Shown one piece after another: positions 4,440 to 25,400 of a stretch of DNA of 49,644 bases. The translations under genes and the position numbers were made by a program. Location of the stretch: positions 42,702 to 92,345 of the forward strand of contig JASFYI010000004.1 of assembly GCA_030055515.1 (NCBI GenBank). The letters are read 5' to 3'. Source of the stretch: Methanolinea sp. Its GTDB lineage: Archaea > Halobacteriota > Methanomicrobia > Methanomicrobiales > Methanospirillaceae. The notes under the pieces are model-generated. The model saw only the letters and a program-made list of their open reading frames with translations. It was not told the origin of the DNA and made no database searches. The first letter of the stretch is position 1; each line of letters starts with the position of its first letter.

Positions 4440-5481
4440 GGGCAGAGAGTGCCGTGAGGAAGTACGCCGCGGGGAACCCGGCGAGCTCCGCGGTGATCCC
4501 CGCGAGGAACGGCACGGCGGACATGCCCCCGTAACTCGCGGTGTTGAAGAGTCCCATGAGCACGCCCTGCCGCCTCCCCGCGGCGGCGAGGAAGGAGAGC
4601 TGGGCTATCATCACCATTCCCGCGAGCCAGCCGATCACGAGGAAGCCCCACATCGAGAAGAAGGTGAGGGCGACGCCGCCCGCCATGGCGATCGACGCGG
4701 CACGTATCGTCGGGACGGGGGGGAGGCTCGCGTGCGAGGTGACGAGGACCGAGGCGACGGTGGCGATGTTCATGAGCGCGATCTGGGCGGAGACGGGGCC
4801 GGCGGAGAGGCCGCTGTGCTCGGGGTGGAGGGCGGTGAGGGCCCCCGTGATCCCGACGAGCACGACGGCAGAGAACCAGAGCCAGAAGTAGGTCCGGAGC
4901 GCCCAGGCGAGCCTCTCCCTCGTCTCCCCCGCCGGCTCGCCCCCGTTCCCGGGGGAGCCCTTCCCCTCCCCCATGCCGAGCGAGAGCGCGAGGGGGAGGA
5001 GCGAGACCCACGTGAAGAGGACGATCCCCTCGCGGGGCCCCCCGCCCGCAGAGACGAGCCACCCCGTCACGAGGAGGCCGGAGAGCAGGCCGAGGTTCAG
5101 GAGCCCCATGAAGTACCCGCTCATCCGCTCGTGGTCCGGACGCGCGTTGAGGCGCGCGAGCGCCGCGGGGACGAAGAGACCTGCCCCGATCCCCTCGGCG
5201 AGCCGCCCGGCGAGGACGAGGAGCGGCGATCCGGCTGCCGAGAGGACGATCCCCGAGAGGAGGGTGAGCGAGAGCCCGGCGCGGACGAGCGGGACTGCAC
5301 CGACCCTGTCGGCGAGGTACCCCGAGGGCAGGACGAAGAGGAACGCCCCGAGGAAGTACGCGGAGAACACCGCGCCCTGGAGCGCTGTCCCGGGCGCGAA
5401 GGAGGGGAGGACGGGCACTATCGCGTTCGAGAGTGCCATGACCGAGAAGACACCGGGGAGGAGGGCGAGGCTCTCCTTCAT
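4381..5481 (-). CDS. MFS transporter
   Basis: Predicted 366-residue major facilitator superfamily permease with about 11-12 hydrophobic segments. The motif-A-like loop [17 protein letters not shown] lies between the second and third helices and a [10 protein letters not shown] segment in the fourth. It starts at ATG 5481, overlapping the aCPSF1 stop codon (ATGA, 5478-5481), so it is probably translated from the same mRNA. The substrate cannot be assigned; drug or metabolite efflux is possible. Linkage to aCPSF1 may be no more than read-through convenience. Confidence 0.85.
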
Positions 5482-7367
5482 ATCATCCGGTACGTCTCCA
5501 AGTTCATGGGCGAGTGAGTCTCGATGTGGTATCTCTTGTAGATAGAGCTCGCGAGGTCGATGGTGTTGTTCTCGTCGCCGTGGACCGTGAAGATCTTCTC
5601 GGGCCGCGGCTGGATGTGGGCGATGTAGTTCATCAGCTGTTTCCGGTCGGAGTGGCCGGAGAACCCGTCGATCGTCACGATATCCATGTTGATGAGGATC
5701 GTCCCCTTCCTCCCGACCGGGATCTCGCGCCACCCCTTCTGGATGCGGCGGCCGAGCGTCCCCTCCGCCTGGTACCCGACGAAGACGAGCGCGTTCTTCT
5801 CGTCGGGCGCGAGGTTGCTCAGGTACTCCATCACGGGGCCGCCGTTGAGCATCCCCGAGGTCGTGATGATGACGCAGGGGTCGCCGGAGATGACCTTCTC
5901 CCGCAGGTCGGGGGAGTCGACCGGGACGAAGCACTCCGCGAGGAACGGGTTGTGCCCCTCCTTGAAGATCTGGTTGCGCAGGTCGCTATTGAGGTACTCG
6001 GGGTACGTGGTGTGGATGGCGGTTGCCTCCCGGATCATCCCGTCGAGGTAGATCTTGACGGAGGGGATCTTCTGCTTGCGCATCCCCTCCTCAAGCGCGA
6101 GCATCACCTCCTGCGACCTCCCGACGGCAAACGCGGGGATGATGACCTTCCCGCCCCTCCGGAGCGTGTTTCTCACGATCTCATACAGCCTCTCCTCGGC
6201 CTCGGCCCGCGTGGGCTGGATGTCGCCCGAGCCCCCGTACGTGCTCTCCATGATGAGGGCCTCGAGCCGCGGGAAGTTGCAGGTCGCGGGGTTGAAGAGG
6301 CGGCTCTTGCTGAAGTTGAAGTCCCCGGTGAACGCGATGTTGTAGAGGCCGTCGCCGATGTGGAAGTGGGCGATCGCCGAGCCGAGGATGTGCCCGGCGT
6401 TGTGGAAGGTGAGCTTGATGTCCGGGGCGATATCGGTCACGCTGCCGTAGTTGAGGGTGATCGAGTGGCGGACGTAGCTCTTCACCTCGTTCGAGCTGTA
6501 GGGGATCTTCCTGTCCTCCTTGCTCACCACGTCGAGGTAGTCGAGCTGGAGCATCGCGGCGAGGTCCCTCGTCGGCGGCGTGCTGTACACCGGCCCGTCG
6601 TACCCGTACTTGTAGAGGAGGGGGACGAGCGCGCAGTGGTCGAGGTGGGCGTGGGTGAGGACGACCGCGTCGAGCTGGCTCAAGGGGTGTATCTCGGGGA
6701 CATAGAGGTACGGGGTGCTCGCGTTCGTGTCGGGTTTCTCGCCGCAGTCGATGAGGACCCTCGACTCGGGCGTCGAGAGGAGGAACGCTGCCCGCCCGAC
6801 CTCCCTGCAGCACCCGAGCATCGTCACCCTGACCCACTGGTCCTTCGCGATGACGTCGCGGTGGATCCTCCTCCCGATGGTCCTCAGGAACTCCTTCCTC
6901 TCCTCGTTCACGGACCGGAGGTACTGCCTGATCTGCTTGACCGTGGTGGACTCTATCGGGGGCGTCCGGACGACCTTCGGCGTCCACCCGATGTGCCGCG
7001 TGATCTCGCGGAGCGTCGCGCCGTTCTTCCCGATCACGACGCCGGGTTTCTCGGCCTCGATCAGGACCTCGCCCGTGTCGGCGTCAAAGTAGATGTCCGT
7101 GATCCCCGCGCTCTCCGCGACGACCGCCCGGATGTCCTTCACCGCCTTCTCGGGGTCCTCGAGGACGTTCGGCCGGACGACGATCCGCTTGCGCAGGTCG
7201 CGCGCGAGGATCTTGATGAGGTCCGCCTGGTCGGCGAACTTCTTGGGATCGTCCGTGTAGATGACGAGTTCCGGTCCCTCGAACTCCACGTCGGAGACCG
7301 TGATCCCCGCCGGGACCTTCTCGTTGATCTTGTCCTTGAGCTCCTTGAGCCGCTCTTCGATCTGCAT
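5478..7367 (-). CDS. fttA: KH-domain metallo-beta-lactamase/beta-CASP ribonuclease aCPSF1 (FttA), transcription termination factor
   Basis: Predicted 629 residues, the usual length of archaeal aCPSF1. Order: two N-terminal KH-like domains (residues ~1-145, GxxG-like VIGKNG at 111-116), then a metallo-beta-lactamase core (ligand motif HAHLDH at 239-244; later FTGDFNFS) interrupted by a beta-CASP domain and ending in [11 protein letters not shown] and FTVHGD. The family cleaves nascent RNA at U-rich sites and terminates archaeal transcription. I chose ATG 7367; a TTG directly before it would add one residue. It lies 26 bp downstream of psmB and overlaps the MFS gene. An unbroken T8 tract lies just before its start codon. 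Confidence 0.95.
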
Positions 7368-7379
7368 CAAGACCTACCT

Positions 7380-7387
7380 AAAAAAAA
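7380..7387 (-). terminator. T8 tract between psmB and fttA
   Basis: On minus the 26-bp psmB-fttA spacer contains eight consecutive T residues directly after the psmB stop region, with no hairpin. U-tracts of this kind are the sites at which archaeal RNA polymerase and aCPSF1 terminate, so part of the psmB transcripts may end here. Alternatively it is only spacer. Confidence 0.45.
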
Positions 7388-7393
7388 GGGTGA

Positions 7394-8035
7394 CTAGGCG
7401 GGTACAGCCCGGGAAATTCCCTCGATCTCGCTCTCGGGGAGTTCCCTGTACGCCTCCCTCGTGATGACGACGACGTGGATGCCCTCGCCGGACCCCGCGT
7501 CCCTCTTCATCGCGGACCGGATGGCCCGCACGGCGAGCGCGACCGCCTCGTCTACCGAGAGGTCCTTGCGGTACCTGTCCTCGAGGACCCCGAACGCCAT
7601 GGGCGAGCCGGACCCCGTCGCGACCATCTCCTCCTCGCGGGATGCTCCCCCGAGGGCGTCCACCGCGTAGAGCTTAGGGCCATCGTCGTCGATCCCGCCC
7701 ACGAGGAGCTGGACGTAGAAGGGGTAGAACCGGTTCGCGTTGAGGATGTTCGAGAGGAGCGTTGCCACCGCGCCGACCGTCATCGGCTTTCCGCGCCGGA
7801 TCTGGTAGAGGCTGCACTCCACGGTCATCAGCCGCGCGATCTGCTGGGCATCCCCGACGCCGCCCGCGGTCGTCATCCCTATCCTCTCCGCGATCTGGTA
7901 GATCTTCTTTGCCTTCTTCGAGGCGATCAGGTATCCCATCGTGGCCCTCATCTCGGACGCGAGGACCACTGCATCCCGGAGGACGAGGCCGACCGTGGTC
8001 GTGCCCTTTAGTCCTTCCCTGTATTGGTCATTCAT
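7394..8035 (-). CDS. psmB: Proteasome subunit beta
   Basis: Predicted 213-residue precursor of the 20S proteasome catalytic subunit. A short propeptide of 11 residues ends LKG, and cleavage would expose Thr12. In mature numbering Thr1, Glu17 and Lys33 are all present (TTTVGL...SEMR...AKK), as is the SGS...MAFGVLE region, so it should be an active N-terminal threonine peptidase. It degrades proteins in the cytosol together with alpha rings and PAN, neither of which is in the window. A TATA-like TTTATACG (minus, 8118-8111) lies upstream. Confidence 0.96.
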
Positions 8036-8110
8036 GGAAGCACCCCAAAATATCGGAAAACGCTGGGAAATTACCTTAAAAGCGCTTCAATGAGTATAGT
8101 GTCATCCACG

Positions 8111-8118
8111 CGTATAAA
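8111..8118 (-). promoter_or_regulatory. Box A (TATA) candidate for psmB
   Basis: TTTATACG on minus is close to the archaeal box A consensus and lies in the 91-bp gap between the CBS gene and psmB. Transcription would start near 8088, giving a leader of about 50 nt. A weaker CTTTTAAGG element nearer the gene is an alternative. Confidence 0.45.
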
Positions 8119-13670: not shown

Positions 13671-13682
13671 CCTATTTTTAGG
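13671..13682. promoter_or_regulatory. Near-palindromic shared core promoter CCTATTTTTAGG
   Basis: The 60-bp gap between the EMC6-like gene (start 13652, minus) and rqcH (start 13713, plus) holds one A+T-rich element, CCTATTTTTAGG, almost its own reverse complement. Its centre is about 25 bp from the minus ATG (leaderless spacing) and 36 bp from the plus ATG (about 10-nt leader). One element could therefore serve both directions and co-regulate ABCE1 with RqcH/pelota. Confidence 0.5.
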
Positions 13683-13712
13683 TGCCCCGGAAATATGTAG
13701 CTTGGTATACCG

Positions 13713-18698: not shown

Positions 18699-21600
18699 TC
18701 AGGCACTGATCGCGGCCAGGGTCCCGGGCGAGCTCATGAACAACCAGTAGCCCTTGAACGGGTACATTGGGTTCGTGTCGCTGTGGCTCCCCGAGCCACC
18801 GTTGATCAGGGAGGTCTCGTAGGCCTGCGACGCTGCATTGAACCCGATGGCCTGCGTCCACTGGTTCTTCACGGATATCAGGGTGTCCTTCGCACTCGTC
18901 GGGTTCACGTCCGAGAACCCGATCGCGTTCCAGCCGGAGGAGAGATCCTTCGTCGGCGGGAGGGCAAGCGGGTCGTTCTTGTACGTCAAGGGCACGTCGA
19001 CCGTCGCCGTCGAGTAGATCCAGATCCCGTCGAGGGGTTTGACGACCGAATCTTCCGTCATCTGCCTCCAGATCCCGCTCGCGGCGTCGTAGAGGAAGAC
19101 CGACCTTCCGCCCTTATCCACACCCGCAAAGACCGTCCCGACAGTGTTCTGGCCGTCGGCAAGAGTCCTCGGCGTCGAGACGAAGTTCCAGCCGGGGTAC
19201 AGCCTCATCGTGCTCGCCGGCGGGGTCGTCGGGGTCGGGGTGGGGGTGCCCGTCGGCCCGGGTCCTGCCGTCACTGTGATGTACGCGTTCTTCGTGATCG
19301 AGGAGGTTCCGGTGGCACCCGTAATTGTGAGAGTCACCGAGTACGTCCCCGGGCTCGAATAGACGTGCAGGGGATTCTCCTCGCCGGAAGTGGATCCGTC
19401 ACCGAAGTTCCACTCGCGCGTCGTCGGCGACCCTATGGAGAGGTCGGTGAACTGGACGGAGAGCGGGGCGGGACCGTTTCTCGGCGTCCCGGAGAAATCT
19501 GCCTGCAGGGCCGTGTTGCTCTCGACGGTGAAGTTCAGGACCAGAATCCTGTCATCGACGTTCCTGTCACTGAATCCCTGGAGAAGGGCATGGAGCGCTG
19601 CCGTCCCCGCGAGGCGGTCTGGCCCGTCGATAACGAAGAGCTTGCTCCAACGGACTGGCGTAGCAGTGACGACGAACTTCTTGTTGACGTCAGGGTACCA
19701 TACCTCATCTCTAAGGACCGCAGGGTCAAACCGTAACCACGGGCACCAGTCTGACTGGTCACAAATCTTTGTTTCAGGTATAATATCGAGCCTGTGGTTA
19801 TACATGGGATGCTGGACAACGATGGTATAGGTTCCGGGCTCGAGGGCAAGGGTATTAATATAATTAGCTAAATTAATGGAGTATTTTCCTGTATTACAGT
19901 CAGGGAAAACAGTATCGAAAACGTATTTCTGACCAGCCACTTTATTCTCGCCAAACACCCAGAACCCGAGTGGTACGGTATTATATTGTTGACCAATTGC
20001 CTCTCCCCTCATACCTGTCACGGTTCCACTCACAGATATGGAAGGAGGAATACAGCATACAATCTTCAAGACCTTTGGATTGATTGTTCCTGTAATGGAA
20101 GGTTCAAGGAATGTAAACGGTTTTTTAGCCCATGCAGCGCATGTCACATTCACGCCACTGCACTCGTTACAAGGTACACCTTCGAGAGCAGGGGCATCAT
20201 TAGGCATACTTGTCGCATAGATCGTATATCTTCCAAGATCTATCTGCAGATTACGCGTGACCCACCTGTATTCCCATGTTCCGTCAGATTTCACAGGAAT
20301 AGCCGTGAACGTCGAGGCATTTCCGTTCACAACCGTTTTTGTTGCATTCATATCGACGCCAGCGCAGTTCTGGCATGGTCCCGTGATGAAGAGATAGGTT
20401 GTGCGGGAATCTGTGTTTGTTCCGAAAATTCTGATGGTTTCACCAAGGTACCCTTCGTCGGAAGTTACCCCACACACCTCAGTATTGATTGTCACAACAC
20501 CTTTCTGCACATTCACGCACGTTTCTGCGTACGGCCTTGTTGGGTCCAATTCACAGACATCGTATGGAATCCATCGCTGCGTTCGTATCTTGTACGAAGA
20601 TGGGGCAGTACATGTGCTTGTTTGCCATTCGATTGTTCTTTCTCCTTTTTCGTCAGTATAAACAAGAGCATAGTAATATTTCCCCCCATCTGGGCTGTGG
20701 GGAAGTATGCCATATAGTTTTTCGGTGCAGTAACATCCACACCATTCGATGAGTGTATCACCAATCGTGTAATATTTGCCATTTATTCCCCCACCATTGA
20801 CCGGTTGTCTATATGTGCAGCCACAGTCACTGCACGTTTGATACATATCACAAATACTGCCTATTGTGCGGGGACAGGAAATCTCGAAAGAACCATACTG
20901 GTCTGTAAATTTAATCCCCTCTTGTCCAGGCGTAATCATTGGGGGTTGGTCACAACATACACCTGACATAGCATCGTCGCAGCAGCCATTTGGACAGCCA
21001 TCACAATCCTTAATCCATATGAGATAAGTGGTATTGGGAATTCCTTTTACTGTTGTATAAAATTTGTCTCCTCGAATGAGGGATGCAGGATTGACTGTCA
21101 GGGTAGGTTTCTCTTCTTCAAGTGTTACTGTTTTAATTGTCCCCTTAAATCCTAAATTATTTTGATTGCATTCTATCCATACCTGGTAGGTTCCGGGACT
21201 ATACACGGGGAAACTCGTGATAGGATCGATAGCGTCTGTTTTCCACCCATTTGCTTTATAATAAATAGATCCATTTCCTGACGACCAATACCAGGGTGAC
21301 GAATTAACGGCAAGATAAGTGAGATCTCTCTGCGAAGCGGTGGGAACTGTCGGAGACCACAGTTTATTGTACGTGACCCCTCCTGGTCCTTTCACAACAA
21401 TCCTGCAATCAAATGTCGATGAAGGACTTCTCAGGAAAATGTAATGGAGTGAAGACTGGGTGAGCTCAAAGTCAAGAATGTCCCCGATGAGGGCAGTACC
21501 ATCTGTGACATCCGTATTATAACCGACAGTGCTTGGCCCAAGATCCCTGATTCTCAATATGGCTTCCGGAGCGACAACTGTAAATGCAGGCTCTGTTGGA

Positions 21601-21935
21601 TTAGTCTGCCCAGATTCATACAATCTCCACCAAAAACCTTTTCCTTCGGTTCCAACGAACGGAGATGTTGGACTGTCATCGATATTAAAATTCGTCAGAA
21701 CATACCCAGAGAGGTCGATTTGCCTGTCAGGGGGATTGCTCATACTCGATGTTGAATCCCACCATGCGAGATATTGTGCACTCCCAACAGCGGCGGTTAC
21801 ATCGAGGCCTTCCTCTCCCAGAATAACAGTTCCACCCTGGGGAACAACATTCAACTGCGCCGAAGCCGGTAGCACCATCGCGGCGATCGCGATGCCCATC
21901 ACTAACGAGAGGAGAACTTTCTCTTGAAGCGTCAT
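18699..21935 (-). CDS. Large secreted DUF3821-like/PKD surface protein with A+T-rich Cys-rich core (1078 residues)
   Basis: ATG 21935 follows AAGGTGG at good spacing and gives a signal peptide (ending LPASAQ). The mature N-terminus [19 protein letters not shown] matches the start of DUF3821-type S-layer-like proteins of Methanomicrobiales. A long core (~50-730) includes Cys-rich segments such as [30 protein letters not shown] and CGCYC. Then come a PKD domain (~805-895, [11 protein letters not shown]), a Thr/Pro linker, and a C-terminal domain of two PGWNFVSTP / [10 protein letters not shown]-type repeats. There is no C-terminal membrane helix, so anchoring is unclear. The DNA for the core is markedly A+T-rich against G+C-rich ends, suggesting domain acquisition. 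Probable promoters lie at 22003-22042. Confidence 0.83.
19740..21780. other. A+T-rich segment inside a G+C-rich gene
   Basis: By eye the base composition drops sharply near 19740 and recovers near 21780, while the reading frame stays open. The segment encodes the core of the DUF3821-like protein, including its Cys-rich part. Codon choice here favours A/T third positions (ATA, TTA, AAA, TGT), unlike nearly every other gene in the window. Confidence 0.85.
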
Positions 21936-22453
21936 TTTGGACCACCTTGATTGTATATAACAAGAGAGGTATCCCGGACGTCCAGCTTGGGGATTATCCA
22001 CTCTTTTATATGGTGAGGGTTAAGGTGGATATACATATATATTTTTCCATCGCCCATTTCGGTGAATGACCCCTCGGGCACCCCGGGACTGCGATTCCGG
22101 GGTTAGTCCGGTGAGATTCACGGTGATGTTTGGTATATTAAGCTATCCTTTTTTTCACGAGTGTTGCGGTAACATATCATGTTAAAAAACCGTATTTTCA
22201 ATCCGGGCTGCATCAATTCCATTTTTATTCGATTATTCAGGGCAGAAGTCCTCGCGGCACTGGTGCCAACGGTGTGCGACATTCCCGTGGCAGTCGCGCG
22301 AGATCGTGCACGTGAGAACGAGTGCGCTCCCATTGCCAGTCGCGGGAGGTTCTGCCCTTTTTTTGTGAGATCAAAGGGAGAAGATCGTGATATAGATAGT
22401 GAAAAATTGGAAGAATGGCGAAATTTAGAAGAAAGATTCATTTTTTAGAGCGC
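21936..22453. other. 518-bp intergenic region between two surface-protein genes
   Basis: It holds promoter elements for the downstream minus gene: ATATATATG (22030-22042, minus) and CATATAAAAG (22002-22012, minus), the latter giving a start near 21981. A CCCCGG-N10-CCGGGG inverted repeat sits at 22081-22102. The stretch 22140-22450 is A+T-rich at the edges and G+C-richer in the middle; short open frames exist on both strands there, but none shows recognisable motifs or a good start. Confidence 0.6.
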
Positions 22454-25400
22454 TCACTCCGGCGGTCCCCCGCGTCCCGGCCTTATCCTTACGATGTAGA
22501 ACGCCACTCCCGCGGCGACGGCGATGACCACGACAAGGATCGCAACGGGCACCTGCGGGAATTCTGCCCCGGGGGTGGGAGTGGGAGCCGGGGTCCCGGC
22601 GGTCGGGACGGGCGTTTCTGCCGGTGCCCTCGCGAACAGCCCGTAGATGCCGCCTTGGGTGATGGGCGCACTCACCGTGCGGCTGTCCTGGTCCGTGGAT
22701 GTGGGAAGCGGTATCCAAGTCCCTTTTAGCGGGTCGAAATGCATGAGGACGAGGTCGCGGCCCGCGAGGGCATTCCACTCCTCGGCGGTGAACTGGAGCG
22801 ACAGCGTCGCACCGGGGTCGAGGAGCGTGCAGTTCGGGCTGACTATGTAGGCATATCCCGTGAACGCGGGATCAGCAGGGACGGGGGGGAGGTCCCGCTC
22901 GGCAACCGGGAACAGCTCGATCGTCAGGGGCTGCGGACCATCCCCGCAGGTCACTGCGACGGCCGTCCCGATGGATACCGAGGCCCTGCCGTCCGGCGAG
23001 ACGATCGTGACCGGCTGCAGGGTCCTGCCGTCGGGCCCGAGCGGGAGAGGTCCTGCCGGCGTTACCGTGGGAGTCGGTGTGGGTGTGGGGGTGGGCGTCG
23101 GGGTTCCCGTGATGAGGAAGGTGCCCCCTCCTCCGCCTCCACCGCCACCACCGCCGCCACCCCTCTGGGACGCGATGATGTAGTCGGTCCGGGTCACGGT
23201 ATCCGTCGCCGTGCCGTTCGAGACCGTGAGCGACACGGTGTACCCTCCCGGCCGGGTGTAGATGTGGCTTGGGTTCCTCTCGTCGGAGTAGCTCCCGTCA
23301 CCGAACGACCAGTTCCACGAGGTGGGGTTCCCCGTGGAGATGTCCGCGAAGAGGACCGTGAGCGGGATGAAACCAGACCTCGGGGCTCCCACGAAGTCTG
23401 CCTGCAGGCCCGGCGGCGGCGGTGGTGGCTGTCCTGTCACATTGATGTAATTGGTCCTCGTCTTGGAGCCTGACCCGTATTCATTTGCGACGGTGAGGGA
23501 AACGGTGTAGGTCCCGCCGTACTGGTACACGTGGACAGGGTTCTGCACGGAGGAGACACTGCCGTCGCCGAACGTCCATGACCATGCCGTCGGTTCACCC
23601 GTGGAGAGGTCGGAGAATGCGACCGGGAGCGGGGCCTCTCCGGACGTGACGTTGGCAACGAAGTCGGCGACGGGCGGGATCCCGTGCACGGCGATGTAAT
23701 TTGTCTTGGTCTCGGTGTCGATACCGCCAAGACCCCTCACCCGGAGCGAGACGGTGTAGTTCCCGGGCTGTGCATAGGTGTGGACCGGGTTTCTCGCCGT
23801 GGAACTGCCCCCGTCACCGAAATTCCAGATCCACTCGTACATGGACCCCGTGGAGAGGTCGGTGAACTGGACGGTGAGAGGCACGGGCCCCGACGTCACG
23901 TTCGCAACGAACTGTGCGACGGGCGGGGGAGGCACGGGCACGACCCTTATGTAGTCAACCCTCGTCATCGTCGACGGTGTACCCGCCCCCTGTCTCACCG
24001 TCAGCGAGACGGTGTAGGTGCCGACAGACCCGTATGTGTGGACCGGATTCTGCGCTGTGGATGTCCCACCGTCACCGAAAGTCCAGAACCACGTGTCGTG
24101 GGGTCCGGTGGACGTGTCCGTGAACTGGACCGCGAGGGGAACGAATCCCACCGTGGGGTCAGCGGTGAAACCGGCCTGCAGCGGAGGAGCAGTGGGCGTG
24201 GGTGTCGGGGTAGGTGTCGAGGTAGGAGTGGACGTAGGTGTCGGTGTCAAGGTAGGTGTGGGCGTGGGTGTCGGTGTCGGCGCGGGCCCCGTGACGTTGA
24301 TGTACTGGGCCTTCGTCTCGGTCCCGGAACCGATATCGTTTGTCACGGTCAGGGTGACATCGTAGAGGCCAGGGTTGTTGTAGGTGTGGACCGGGTCCTG
24401 TGCGGTTCCGTTCGGAGTATTGTCACCGAAGTCCCACTGGTAACCTAAGGGCCGGGTACCGTCGGAGAGATCGGTGAACTCCACTGTGAGCGGCGCGGTC
24501 CCCGCGGTCCGGTTGGCAGTGAAGTTTGCGCGCGGAGAGGTCCCGAGGAGGACGGTATCGTGGTCGAGGGCCACGACCGTGTTGTTCCCGTCCGCGCCGA
24601 GGGCGTAGAGGTCGAAAGTCCCGTCGAGGAGCCCCTGCAGGTCGCCGTGGGGAATCGTGACCTGGGACGCGTGCGTCGCGTACCCCGACGTCCCGTATCC
24701 CGGCGTGATGTTGATCTTCGAGAAGTGGGCCGAGTGCGGCGGGGTTGCGTTCCCGACGGCGAAGACGGAATAGGAGACGACCTTCTTGAAGTCGTCCAAG
24801 CCTAGGCCTGTCTCCCGGAGAATGGCGAGGAAGGGATTCCCGGAGAGGACCTGCTCGGGGGTAACGGAACCCCCAACCTCCCCGAGGGCCGTCATGTTCA
24901 CCCTCACGAGTACATCGTAGGTCTCGTTCCCTTTCACGAGGAGGTACGTGATATTCTTCACGGGTGCCGGGTTCTGGAACGTGAGCTCGAGGTCTGCGCC
25001 GGACCGCTTGTCGTACCTGTAGGGAGGGGTCTTTCCAACCAGTTCCAGCCTGTTGTCACCGTCTGTCACGAGGACCGGCCATGCCGCGTAGACGGCGATT
25101 TTATTTTCAGGGGGCGGGGAATAACGGAACGCGTAGAGGACATGATTCCCGGACTTTGGAATTACAATCGAGCTTTGGGATGTTATCTGGGCAATATTCC
25201 TCTCGAGGAGAAAACCGGAAAGGTTGTTCTCGTTCTTTAAGAGCGTGAAGCCGAGGTCATGCTCCCTGAAGTCGTCGGGATCGATATTGATAAGTACTTT
25301 TTTCCCTATTGTTCCGTCCGGTTGAATCTCGAGGCCGAGGATCCCAGACTGGCTGTCGTAGGAGCGCATGACGTAGAGCCGGTCGGTATTCTTCAGTAGT

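Follow-up and report, generated by a model that had tools for sequence, protein, structure and literature searches.

Does the archaeal termination factor FttA (aCPSF1) limit the expression of its own gene? The question is raised by an uninterrupted T8 on the minus strand between psmB and fttA, in a 49,644-nt stretch of Methanolinea sp. DNA (the window, from here on). The genome measures 1.76 Mb, and most of the named relatives closest to it are Methanolinea, in the order Methanomicrobiales. FttA is homologous to the eukaryotic cleavage subunits (PMC11616081), and aCPSF1 is described as binding U-tracts, needing U4 or more and preferring two such tracts, with KH domains that add specificity (PMC8716108). 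NCBIfam models identify the fttA product as the beta-CASP ribonuclease aCPSF1 (TIGR03675, 1003.6 bits, cut-off 580.2) and the psmB product as the archaeal proteasome beta subunit (TIGR03634, 264.7 bits, cut-off 224). The junction between the two genes is laid out as follows.

5478-7367, minus strand: fttA (aCPSF1, TIGR03675), with its ATG at 7367
7368-7393, minus strand: psmB-fttA intergenic gap of 26 nt, from the sequence and the ORF positions
7369-7372, minus strand: U-rich TCTT between SD and ATG, where the rule of PMC11616081 predicts the FttA cut
7373-7379, minus strand: SD-like AGGTAGG of fttA (the commonest form in the order, seen in relatives, is AGGACG)
7380-7387, minus strand: U8 tract, conserved, 6 nt past the psmB stop and abutting the fttA SD
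7394-8035, minus strand: psmB, archaeal proteasome beta subunit (TIGR03634)

Read along the minus strand, the psmB stop TAG (7396-7394) is followed by TCACCC, the T8 (7387-7380), AGGTAGG, TCTTG and the fttA ATG (7367-7365), with a TTG at 7370 as an alternative start codon. An earlier, sequence-only reading of this DNA had located both the gap and the T8 correctly. The 26 nt that separate the genes suggest that psmB and fttA are co-transcribed. The word TTTTTTTT has a single occurrence in the whole window with both strands counted, against 0.02 expected from shuffles. Over the entire genome, T8 gives 69 overlapping matches, or 43 separate runs when counted by hand. In the annotated part (400 kb of contig 1 plus the window), eight of the nine runs of at least eight T's are intergenic, and seven of the nine lie 6 to 63 nt past the end of a gene on the same strand.

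We compared this gap among 85 distinct Methanomicrobiales loci, made up of 46 named loci, 40 fetched by region (of 80 so fetched) and the own locus, minus duplicates; they are part of the fttA places found by search rather than all of them, and related rows are not independent. Left out were three loci with the 5' end missing (L080, L083, L087), one with an N run (L090) and the duplicates L187 and L219, while the named loci L092-L121, mostly from other lineages, stand outside the set. Conservation of the tract in related genomes had been proposed as a check, and it holds throughout the order: 77 of the 85 gaps carry at least six consecutive T's (at least five in 84, at least seven in 48, at least eight in 23), and a run of at least six A's is present in one. 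Shuffled gaps reach at least six T's in 13.6 of 85 (largest value 22). The tract is kept at high (28/29), middle (37/42) and low (12/14) G+C, and windows of equal length just inside psmB or fttA contain no run of five or more T's (0/84 each). In an alignment of 21 sequences, three T columns are as invariant as the start codon. The exceptions within the order are L215, with a T5 away from the SD, and L220, with a 279-nt gap that lacks the tract. The T8 observation is therefore confirmed, in a stronger form than had been claimed.

Outside the order, where psmB lies upstream of fttA, 15 of 32 gaps have at least five T's and 10 have at least six (L222-L252, L261), many of these gaps being long and A+T-rich; the named Methanothrix loci keep a T6 beside the fttA SD. 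The 15 fttA loci lacking an adjacent psmB (L109, L110, L112, L114, L116, L118, L119, L253-L260; the seven named ones are Halobacteria) have no run of at least five T's within 60 nt, a weak comparison since nearly all of them are G+C-rich. One contig titled Proteobacteria bacterium (L117) codes for an FttA (57% identity) and, upstream of it, has a psmB-like gene; it is probably mislabelled or part of a mixed assembly.

The position of the tract is set by the fttA side of the gap. In 80 of the 85 loci 0-2 nt separate its end from the GG of the fttA SD, and in these 80 the distance from tract end to fttA start is 12.8 nt with an sd of 1.4 (range 11-17), against 7.9 nt with an sd of 8.9 (range 1-38) from the psmB stop to the tract. 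In long gaps (38-55 nt) the tract keeps close to fttA. Past the tract, T is again frequent at +8 to +11 (0.55-0.78, against 0.12-0.32 at -8 to -1 of other genes), so that the layout reads U-tract, SD, a short U-rich stretch and AUG (U-SD-U), the second group of U's being usual but not universal. This arrangement indicates that the tract belongs with the ribosome site of fttA and not with the end of psmB, and anchoring to the SD is a new point. The original idea of U-tract termination is plausible and has partial support, in that the tract is conserved, of the 3'-end type, placed in a co-directional gap and in keeping with the published U-tract specificity. Since the tract keeps its distance from the SD, plain termination has to be weighed together with cleavage of the RNA or a contest with the ribosome.

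How T-runs are used in these genomes was assessed in the own genome (about 450 kb) and in three relatives (1.6 Mb), with a simple custom gene caller; an orthologue-pair background amounted to 34 pairs with starts, and within-genome counts were used instead. In the three relatives, 76 of the 322 convergent gaps have a run of at least six T's past the stop, as do 98 of the 423 wide co-directional ones (34 and 33, respectively, for A); before divergent starts such runs occur in 4 of 396 (11 for A). T-runs in the relatives therefore behave as 3'-end signals. Runs of five or more T's beside an SD are seen there in 7 of the 112 short co-directional gaps, in 3 of the 423 wide ones and in none of the 396 divergent leaders (short gaps versus divergent leaders, p=2e-5), and the equivalent with A in none, four and two. 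The combination of T-run and SD is found mainly at operon junctions, three of the seven short-gap cases being fttA and two rpsJ; two remain without these, so that few genes carry the short-gap signal. In the own genome the T version is present in 1 of 38 short gaps, 2 of 122 wide gaps and none of 116 divergent leaders, and the A version in 3 of the 38 short gaps, so this genome alone has no T preference in short gaps.

The tract is in keeping with what has been published on FttA specificity. The FttA cut end in T. kodakarensis should have a U at -1, with U-rich RNA from -9 to -14 (PMC11616081), and as a match of sequence only, 79 of 80 loci have a fitting U at +8 to +10 past the tract. By this structure-based rule the cut is predicted about 8-11 nt past the tract, at 7369-7372 in the own locus, and in M. 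maripaludis the Term-seq 3' ends come directly after the U-tract. The positions at which 3' ends had originally been expected, 7380-7387, are therefore too narrow a range. By the preference for two U4 tracts within about 18 nt, the own gap counts two units (in one U8), and 29 of the 85 gaps hold one, fewer than the two that bind best, a point against the reading of the tract as an FttA site. The internal operon terminators of M. maripaludis depend on poly-U as well as on aCPSF1 and reduce the output of the gene downstream (PMC10450193). Like those ioTTS, the psmB-fttA gap has a poly-U tract between co-directional genes; unlike them, the tract adjoins an SD, the downstream gene is that of the termination factor itself, and the site is a candidate.

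A conserved U-tract at the SD of fttA suggests that FttA limits its own production. The proposed course of events starts with psmB and fttA being transcribed together. The KH domains of FttA would bind the U-tract in the nascent RNA, and FttA would cut a little further on, the U's between SD and AUG being the likeliest place. A cut there (7372-7369 in the own locus) would separate the SD from fttA, RNA polymerase would then terminate, and the fttA message would be lost while the psmB mRNA is kept. A ribosome on the SD would need the same stretch of RNA as FttA, in line with a competition between the two put forward in the discussion of PMC11616081. More FttA would mean more cutting and less new FttA, hence a negative feedback that holds fttA below psmB. 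Co-transcription, binding, cutting, termination and feedback are here deduced from the presence, conservation and placement of the tract, the gathering of exact copies at fttA and the 3'-end character of T-runs in these genomes. For an FttA-dependent site of termination or cleavage inside the operon, at the fttA SD and with negative feedback on fttA, we estimate a probability of about 0.45; that the tract is used for termination or cleavage, feedback aside, is probable.

A possible, though less than likely, alternative is a fixed internal terminator that sets only the psmB:fttA ratio, with FttA saturating and its level without regulatory effect. Internal poly-U terminators do set operon ratios in M. 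maripaludis (PMC10450193). The same design is moreover present ahead of rpsJ, which has no role in termination.

L292-L321: loci upstream of rpsJ, compared for the T-run and SD design; the own locus is L292, around 1484-1500

This set lacks a locus for 2 of 32 matches, and the gene ahead of rpsJ, recognised by eye, we take to be that of EF-1alpha. The rpsJ design is less faithful, with at least six T's in 17 of 30 species and T5 plus GG in 18 of 30, the own one included, and the far stricter tract at fttA (77/85) speaks against a fixed terminator. So does the SD-U part, which is special to fttA. GGACG is seldom an SD (4 of 360 genes on contig 1 of the own genome, 10 of 659 in the relative G024). 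The 18-mer TTTTTTAGGACGATTTTA was searched in 101 related genomes: all 12 exact copies lie at the fttA start, as do 11 of the 13 with one mismatch (one of the others is elsewhere and one, in G272, is unplaced) and 11 of 30 with two. Allowing up to two mismatches there are 55 matches versus 65 for the reversed control (sums made by hand), and 56 of the 101 genomes have none, the own genome among them, whose copy of the element deviates (AGGTAGGTCTTG). A further form, TTTTTTAGGACG, has 12 of its 16 copies in 31 genomes at fttA. The exact U-SD-U element is thus concentrated at fttA, and looser matches are not specific. A regulon defined by TTTTTTNGGACG was rejected: its 48 matches in the 31 genomes compare with 136 of the reversed control (again hand sums); 9 of the 30 matches inspected among the 48 are at fttA.

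Unlikely, in our judgement, is a translational operator, in which FttA or another U-binding protein on the U-SD-U RNA would block the ribosome with no termination involved. Anchoring of the tract to the SD instead of the psmB stop, and the U's that return on the far side of the SD, are what such an operator would lead one to expect, but in the relatives T-runs mark 3' ends, and divergent leaders are not enriched in them. A conserved fold hiding the SD was also considered and discarded, as the sole consensus stem of the 21-sequence alignment sits in the coding part. Nor is there a case for a bacterial-type intrinsic terminator: no minus-strand hairpin site was found at 7380 and no G+C-rich hairpin directly before the T-run, no stem is conserved at the tract, and the fold z-score is -0.18.

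It is very unlikely that the tract merely serves as an unstructured U-rich stretch that aids ribosome loading on fttA, FttA being uninvolved. Its fixed position relative to the SD would suit this role, and U's also precede the SD at the start of psmB (T5 in 47 of 89, at least six T's in 9 of 89). Against it, T5 or longer beside an SD is absent from the 396 divergent leaders of the three relatives, and for the same reason a general translation signal of U's before the SD was set aside as the main reading. Nor does folding predict an unpaired tract: over 80 loci, in a calculation that carries no shuffle control, the mean unpaired value is 0.33 for the tract and 0.38 for the SD, i.e., both are mostly paired. 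A chance or neutral A+T-rich spacer, to which the T-richness of the gaps (0.49 over the 85) would lend itself, is scarcely credible beside order-wide conservation in separate assemblies, the expectation of 0.02 for T8 in the window and the 13.6 shuffled gaps against 77.

The leader of psmB may hold a second site.

8036-8085, minus strand: psmB leader with three U4 tracts, GCGCTTTT (8078-8085), GCGTTTT (8057-8063) and ATTTTGGGGTG (8041-8051)
8111-8118, minus strand: putative TATA-like TTTATACG before psmB (TATA-like words in 69 of 84 loci)

With 84 of the 85 loci usable, AGCGCTTTT, GCGTTT and ATTTTGGGGTG are conserved in many of them, not all, and CGCTTTT is found in 55 of 84. Two or more U4 units are present in 70 of the 84 psmB leaders and three or more in 44, versus 10 and 0 of 472 divergent leaders in four genomes, a contrast that is inflated because the 84 loci include A+T-rich species. 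Ranking leaders within genomes (gaps of at least 60 nt) is free of that bias. In the own genome the psmB leader has three U4 runs (as has one other leader of 209 on contig 1); it has four in G024 (first of 391), three in G022 (a tie with three more among 198) and two in G103 (a tie with four more among 203). Self-control could involve two sites, with early termination by FttA in the multi-U4 leader (AGCGCUUUU, GCGUUU, AUUUUGGGGUG) and a U-SD-U site at which FttA cutting and ribosome loading would be mutually exclusive, a scheme that we regard as doubtful. The leader as a putative FttA site is speculative, and a DNA-level operator built on the palindrome AGCGCT is an equally open reading. If true, the two-site circuit would let FttA level and free ribosomes jointly set FttA output, and would be an archaeal counterpart of the self-control of Rho, PCF11 and CSTF3.

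Several known systems resemble the self-control proposed for FttA. The bacterial factor Rho is autoregulated by attenuation in the rho leader (PMC6582626); FttA, like Rho, would be a termination factor that holds down its own gene by ending transcription early, but for Rho this has been shown, and it takes place in a leader and not at an operon junction. CSTF3, PCF11 and Nrd1, which are 3'-end factors, control themselves by premature termination of their own transcripts (PMC7471841); they differ in being eukaryotic and acting in introns or near the start, through polyadenylation for CSTF3 and PCF11. The FttA-dependent terminator described by structure has U-rich RNA some 9-14 nt upstream of a cut made after a U (PMC11616081), and the likeness of the fttA site to it concerns the sequence fit. 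In Saccharolobus, aCPSF1 is reported on promoter-proximal complexes, more so where output is low (PMC8448881). We found no report of self-control of FttA/aCPSF1 in the open-licence papers searched, the inspected hits being a reference title that concerns another enzyme and a remark on initiation in general, and one may be in print elsewhere; PMC8653824 yielded nothing on the genome neighbourhood of aCPSF1. The U-SD-U element at fttA offers a concrete site for testing archaeal termination-factor self-control, and it would also test the ribosome-FttA competition proposed in PMC11616081.

Two other features of the window deserve mention. On the plus strand, CCTATTTTTAGGTGCC (13671-13686) lies about 30 nt ahead of a plus-strand start, and the relative G024 has a similar TATTTTTAGGTGC ahead of the orthologue of that gene. 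From about 19500 to 22500, G+C drops to 0.43-0.50 in a window that is mostly at 0.60-0.72, and this stretch is possibly acquired DNA.
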